Source of the DNA: Bacteroidota bacterium
GTDB lineage: Bacteria > Bacteroidota > Bacteroidia > B-17B0 > Aurantibacillaceae
NCBI GenBank assembly: GCA_003153315.1
Contig: PLYA01000008.1
Span: 44,245 to 108,244 of the forward strand
Length of the DNA: 64,000 nt
Reading direction: 5' to 3'
This document shows, piece after piece, positions 60,186-60,519 of this stretch. Position 1 is the first letter of the stretch. Every line of letters begins with the position of its first letter. Both the position numbers and the translations under genes were made by a program. The notes under the pieces were generated by a model that had not been told where the DNA came from, made no database searches, and worked only from the letters and a program-made list of their open reading frames with translations.

Positions 60186-60519
60186 CAACTCCTTGTAGTA
60201 AACAGCAAACCAACTATTTTGTTGCTTACCTATAAATAAGCACTGCTTAAACGCCAAAAATCAGTGCATAAACCAAGGAAATCAATGCTTCAACCCCGGA
60301 GTTTAATGCTTAAAAGCTATATGCGGTGCATAAACTAAGGAATTTAGTAAGCAAACTCCGGAGCGCAAGAAGTAAACCAAGGAGTTTAGCCTTCAAACTC
60401 CGGAATTTAGTATATAAACTAAGGAATTTAAGGGCTATATGCAGCCCGTACTATTTAAACTGCGGAGTTTATGCACTAAACTAAGGAAATCAGGAAGTAA
60501 ACTAAGGAGTTTAAACAGT
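60186..60519 (+). repeat. Degenerate 21-nt tandem repeat array, locus 3 (about 16 units)
   Basis: Units AAACCAAGGAGTTTAGCCTTC, AAACTCCGGAATTTAGTATAT, AAACTAAGGAATTTAAGGGCT, AAACTAAGGAGTTTAAACAGT; two units of 20 nt. Confidence 0.93.

Follow-up and report, generated by a model that had tools for sequence, protein, structure and literature searches.

Upstream of an orphan gene in a Bacteroidota genome lies a row of 21-bp units whose half-sites can pair across the short linkers between them, and the question raised by this locus is whether such a row acts as RNA or as DNA. The original prediction, made for a window of 64,000 nucleotides (the whole stretch of DNA that we analyzed), allowed both: a row of hairpins that show variable loops or, equally, a row of palindromic operators on one face of the double helix. 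The window holds three such arrays, listed with their neighboring genes in Table 1. Array 3 ends 53 bp ahead of the ATG of the 239-aa gene, and arrays 1 and 2 lie directly 5′ of the 223-aa and 268-aa genes in the same arrangement. Steps between units are exactly 21 bp, although arrays 1 and 3 contain one or two of 20 bp. In array 3, there are two of these, at 60301→60321 and 60426→60446; both coincide with GCTATATGC, and the second sits within a perfect small palindrome, GGGCT-ATATGC-AGCCC.

Table 1. Arrays, adjoining genes and related features of the window
Feature	Position	Strand	Description
Orphan gene, 223 aa	5143..5814	-	Directly 3′ of array 1
Array 1	5913..6121	-	10 units of 21 bp; consensus about GCnCTTGCAAATGATTTGCGA
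Orphan gene, 268 aa	34954..35760	-	Directly 3′ of array 2; distant relative of array-1 gene
Array 2	35808..35996	-	9 units of 21 bp; consensus about GGAAnnnnTAAAGTCATGACC
Array-1 flank copy	36263..36298	-	Exact 36-nt copy of distal flank 6145-6180, upstream of array 2
Array 3	60238..60529	+	14 units of 21 bp; consensus about AAACTAAGGAGTTTAnnnnnT; period-21 score 0.54
Hairpin GGAGTTT-AGCCTTC-AAACTCC	60381..60401	+	Sole perfect 7/7 pair across linkers of array 3
Orphan gene, 239 aa	60583..61302	+	3′ of array 3; no Pfam/NCBIfam match; AlphaFold2 pLDDT 91

The hairpin on which the prediction was built is real and occurs once, but it lies one base to the left of the 60382-60402 originally given. 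The remaining linkers of array 3 have 0 to 6 matches each between the flanking half-sites. Pairing summed across all linkers of this array is 35, against 34.9 ± 4.2 after the 3′ half-sites are re-dealt among the units, and at least one perfect 7/7 pair turns up in 16% of such re-deals. The entire 64-kb window contains 10 perfect hairpins with a 7-bp stem and a 7-nt loop versus 4.2 in shuffles. The sequence reported for locus 1, TGCAAGTACTTGCA, was found at 6075. For locus 2, the arms GTCATGACC and GGTCATGAC each occur, but a complete perfect pair around one linker does not. Since the 3′ half of a palindromic core complements the 5′ half of every core, adjacent half-sites pair automatically. 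The geometry of paired half-sites with the linker as a loop is therefore true, but it adds nothing beyond a repeating palindromic unit, and covariation is absent.

We then considered the arrays of the genome at large, using a sample of 1.86 Mb, or 45% of the genome. With the detector used, 128 of the 151 tandem-repeat hits in this sample had a period of 21 or 42. Their sequences are locus-specific, and units differ strongly. The equation of 21 bp with two helical turns held up well: 1187 of 1204 steps in these arrays are exactly 21 (98.6%), a count somewhat favored by the unit finder, which penalizes other steps. Palindromy, tested by permuting unit columns, reached p<=0.05 in 55 of the 128 own-genome arrays (binomial p 5e-37) and in 36 of 59 arrays that lie upstream of homologous genes and were oriented by the gene (binomial p 7e-32); these binomial values are optimistic, since some arrays are related copies. 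When arrays of different phyla were aligned by rotation, they had in common a weak dyad pattern, roughly TTYYnCAAnnnTTGnRRAA, with 4.73 bits of information versus at most 3.43 in permuted arrays. The external arrays alone gave 5.76 bits against a null of at most 3.78. A 42-bp palindromic super-unit was rejected as a general rule, as alternation was significant in just 22 of 92 arrays. Coding of a heptapeptide by the 21-bp unit was excluded as well: unit variation carries no codon-position signal (3-periodicity of 0.413 versus 0.423 for permuted columns). Some genomes of the same family carry arrays with a period of 22 rather than 21 (L024, L027, L028, L030, L035, and L040). These arrays are upstream of the gene at a distance of several hundred bases, and the DNA in between includes a conserved promoter region that contains CCACTTA.

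A transcript folded into a row of hairpins, with the linkers as variable loops, should show compensatory changes and a G·U bias, and a palindromic DNA site should show neither. As single strands, the arrays do fold more stably than shuffles, and some (L012 and L055) are preceded by a putative promoter and followed by the start codon. However, the covariation check across the 59 gene-oriented and 128 own-genome arrays found no unit-by-unit compensation. Where a base departs from its array consensus, the mirrored base is complementary at a rate of 0.25 to 0.31 at the hairpin distance, the same as at other distances. Pairing at both dyad axes was unaffected when the 3′ arms were re-dealt between units (z between -1.8 and +1.5). 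Compensatory variation was absent both across linkers and within cores, array 3 included, in tests whose within-array power is reduced by the homogenization of arrays through duplication. Nor is there an excess of G·U: mirrored positions hold 669 G·U and 734 A·C cells (p=0.34). The antisense strand folds as well or better, the sense strand being the more stable in only 19 of 56 arrays; the fold z-scores of array 3 are -3.0 for sense and -4.8 for antisense. Rfam had no match in the window or on the arrays. Furthermore, a terminator hairpin (GCACGACTTTA...TAAAGTCGTGC-T6) lies 3′ of genes of one orphan family, family c (L275 and L276), and separates gene from array. Since this terminator is conserved between two genomes, the family-c array beyond it should be outside the main transcript. 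The hairpin reading thus fails these tests, and we regard it as very unlikely; the DNA-level reading survives them. Palindromy, strand symmetry and the strict 21-bp spacing all agree with palindromic operators on one face of the DNA, the other half of the original prediction, although no binding protein was identified.

Array-adjoining orphan genes encode proteins of 220 to 320 aa, and the array is 5′ or 3′ depending on the family; other arrays are solitary. An orphan gene abuts 50 of the 128 own-genome arrays, and these genes fall into eight sequence families (a to h). The array is 5′ of the gene in families a, b, e, and h, 3′ in c, f, and g, and mixed in d; it is on the usual side of its family in 47 of the 50 cases. 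The protein encoded at 60583-61302 is predicted with high confidence, from its structure model, to consist of a helical N-domain and a C-terminal fibronectin type III (FN3) domain. The model has FN3 matches in the PDB, and no DNA-binding fold was recognized. No Pfam family matches this protein or its relatives, and searches of Rfam, PADLOC, PHROGs, Pfam, and NCBIfam returned nothing convincing for the proteins or arrays of the window. The structure model of the array-2 protein has a pLDDT of 37, with too few relatives. Homology between the array-3 protein and the family of the array-1 and array-2 proteins was considered and dropped; profile comparison does not support it (probability 2.6%).

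In a search of a genome collection, the 60583 protein had relatives in Verrucomicrobia, Methylococcaceae, Crenothrix, Zoogloea, Flavobacterium restrictum, and others. Of the 52 homologues with enough upstream sequence, 40 have an upstream array with a period of 21 or 42 (44 in one case). The sequences of the arrays upstream of these homologues are unrelated, and homologues within the genome studied here likewise have their own arrays with different units. We found no relatives in phage, plasmid, or viral collections or contigs.

This linkage across phyla would fit the idea that each orphan protein recognizes its own array, as in an iteron- or centromere-like cognate pair, so that every pair has its own address. 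Arrays with the same unit occur at up to a few loci (21 groups), and a group often holds one orphan gene plus solitary copies, in keeping with such pairing. The orphan proteins of this genome are also mostly basic, with a median pI of 9.2 to 9.8 in seven of the eight families; their homologues in other phyla, however, have a median pI of 6.1, and FN3 is the only fold recognized. Arrays evolve much faster than the adjoining genes. L006 and L007, whose proteins are 75% identical, have different units, but within a common array framework that differs at a few positions, in line with a cognate pair. Against it, the array of an orthologue with 84% identity (G067) follows the same terminator but is for the most part different, and the arrays of proteins that are 50 to 60% identical or less are hardly more similar than background. 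A cognate pair seems a rather doubtful explanation. Two family-c genes (C22:6938-7294 and C16:32426-32719) are about 88% identical in DNA, and the similarity ends at the array boundary, beyond which the arrays are unrelated; we read this as array replacement.

Could the gene and its array instead form a mobile, selfish cassette, in which the array serves as a site of recombination, replication, or homing and solitary arrays are relics left after gene loss? Several observations are in keeping with this. The distance from dapA to the downstream gene is 17 bp in G064, a genome of the same genus, versus 3.7 kb in the genome studied here (G000), where the insert consists of an array, an orphan gene, and two more genes; G064 thus has the empty site. 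Arrays built from one unit occur beside an orphan gene and alone elsewhere. In the window, the copied flank upstream of array 2 is followed by about two units of the array-1 type and, by its sequence, is a relic of a duplicated array. The distribution over phyla is patchy. Remnants of orphan genes lie beside a few solitary arrays (U81, U8, U47, U58, and U120), but at only 6 of 156 solitary flanks. Moreover, we noticed no recombinase in the unit and saw no terminal repeats or target duplications, and the system is absent from plasmid and phage records and viral contigs. A selfish cassette also does not explain why the 21-bp spacing has hardly any indels, and as the full account we consider it unlikely. 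Many interspersed repeats of about 90 nt lie close to arrays in this genome, and matches to the Flavo-1 sRNA (RF01705) lie near two orphan loci (L003:415-490 and L012:826-906, both on the minus strand).

Another origin would be neutral minisatellites that grow by slippage, and the concerted evolution of the arrays, together with a 42-bp superperiod in some of them, would fit. But one period is found at all loci and in several phyla with hardly any indels, which argues strongly against neutral growth as the sole cause. Palindromy and gene linkage also speak against it, as does the absence of arrays from the sample of a sister genome: there are no period-21 arrays in a 355-kb sample of G064, a count that covers the sampled part. 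Families of the A1 and c type are missing from that genome, which has two family-b genes outside the sampled stretches. Another genome, G003, has none in a 200-kb sample. Slippage as the whole explanation is most improbable.

Sigma-54-type promoters precede 10 of 49 orphan genes versus 14 of 518 array-free genes (Fisher p 7e-6). Their -24/-12 elements (e.g., TTGGCACGTTATTTGGTA) are mostly at -42 to -96 of the orphan gene, irrespective of the side of the array. Such promoters occur at 10 of 17 orphan loci of other genera and at 0 of 48 loci of other phyla. Since they are absent in other phyla, sigma-54 control of the orphan genes appears to be lineage-specific, while the array is general. Within this lineage, the concentration of these promoters at orphan genes (e.g., C89:10650, C52:191536, and C6:80526) suggests a putative RpoN regulon. 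At a subset of loci, the arrays do resemble sigma-54 enhancers, the upstream activating sequences of bEBPs, with tandem palindromic sites before TGGCAC-N5-TTG promoters. Unlike these, the arrays have no common strong motif, no sigma-54 promoters in other phyla, and in some families a position 3′ of the gene. A general role as sigma-54 enhancers was rejected, as the link holds for a subset of loci in this order.

How do the arrays compare with other known systems? Iterons of plasmid origins are tandem repeats of 17 to 22 bp placed two helical turns apart beside a Rep gene. Like the arrays, they have a replicon-specific sequence and partial inverted repeats and are gene-adjacent. They differ in that the arrays number more than 100 per chromosome, lie 3′ of the gene in some cases, and have no plasmid match; the iteron initiator is a winged-helix protein, whereas a helical and FN3 protein stands beside the array. 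We rejected the plasmid iteron class, since the neighboring gene encodes an FN3 protein instead of a Rep initiator and the plasmid search gave no hit. In plasmid centromere arrays (parC/parS, of the ParR and omega types), a small dimeric protein reads tandem sites next to a gene in a cooperative manner; here, by contrast, we noticed no ParM or ParA partner, found no ribbon-helix-helix protein, and counted many loci per chromosome. CRISPR shares the array architecture, but its identical repeats with unique spacers of constant length are not what we found; the arrays consist of 21-bp units with short variable linkers, and we rejected this class too. REP and BIME elements are likewise palindromic intergenic repeats, but the REPs have a common family sequence and are not 21-bp arrays. 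The BrickBuilt minisatellite MITE of Porphyromonas gingivalis has one 23-nt tandem repeat sequence with IS-derived terminal inverted repeats (PMC4596501). It resembles the arrays as an intergenic tandem repeat in a Bacteroidota genome, but here the sequence differs from array to array, and many arrays are paired with a gene. The TAACTGA direct repeats of Beggiatoaceae are one fixed heptamer in 2 to 43 copies (PMC4679880). They also form many intergenic sets per genome near start codons, patchy across phyla, but without 21-bp phasing, palindromy, or a partner gene family. Each of the compared elements matches in one or two features; in none does a single period occur together with unconstrained sequence and with partner genes of one family in several phyla.

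The reading we favor, with close to an even chance of being correct, is that the arrays bind protein in phase with the helix, are paired with orphan genes, and are likely operator- or enhancer-like. Such an array would be an element of double-stranded DNA, a row of about ten weakly palindromic binding sites, one every 21 bp or two helical turns, with the bound dimers on one face of the DNA and able to bind cooperatively. Each array would belong to the neighboring orphan gene, and the gene-array cassette would travel between bacteria. Specificity would come from avidity over many sites that have a common weak purine/pyrimidine dyad pattern; this would let the letters of an array drift, homogenize by tandem duplication, and become locus-specific. 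The array would then most likely control or insulate the orphan gene as an operator- or enhancer-like nucleoprotein platform. What we observed directly is the period, spacing, palindromy, gene linkage, strand symmetry, and absence of hairpin covariation; the protein binding, its cooperativity, the regulatory role, and the identity of the binder are inferred. Several findings count against phased operators. Solitary arrays adjoin ordinary genes, and many arrays are not significantly palindromic. The period of 22 in several genomes does not hold one face at 10.5 bp per turn. Families c, f, and g have their arrays on the 3′ side of the gene, and the link to sigma-54 is lineage-specific.

What appears to be new here is the gene-array system rather than the hairpin geometry with which this work began. 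A search of openly accessible literature found no description of gene-linked 21-bp arrays, and an earlier account may exist elsewhere. The occurrence of arrays beside one uncharacterized kind of gene in unrelated phyla points to an undescribed DNA-based system. We tentatively propose, as a possibility short of an even chance, that this system is horizontally mobile in several phyla and consists of orphan proteins, each with a self-complementary, 21-bp-phased array as a locus-specific address, with further copies at other genes. The same period recurs, with sequence free to vary and a spacing of exactly two turns, beside a single protein family that Pfam lacks, in Bacteroidota, Verrucomicrobia, Gammaproteobacteria, and Betaproteobacteria. 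This recurrence, together with 128 arrays in 45% of one genome, suggests that one shared reader recognizes the geometry of the DNA and not a fixed motif. The arrays offer a direct handle on how a single protein platform could give bacteria a multitude of independent DNA addresses.
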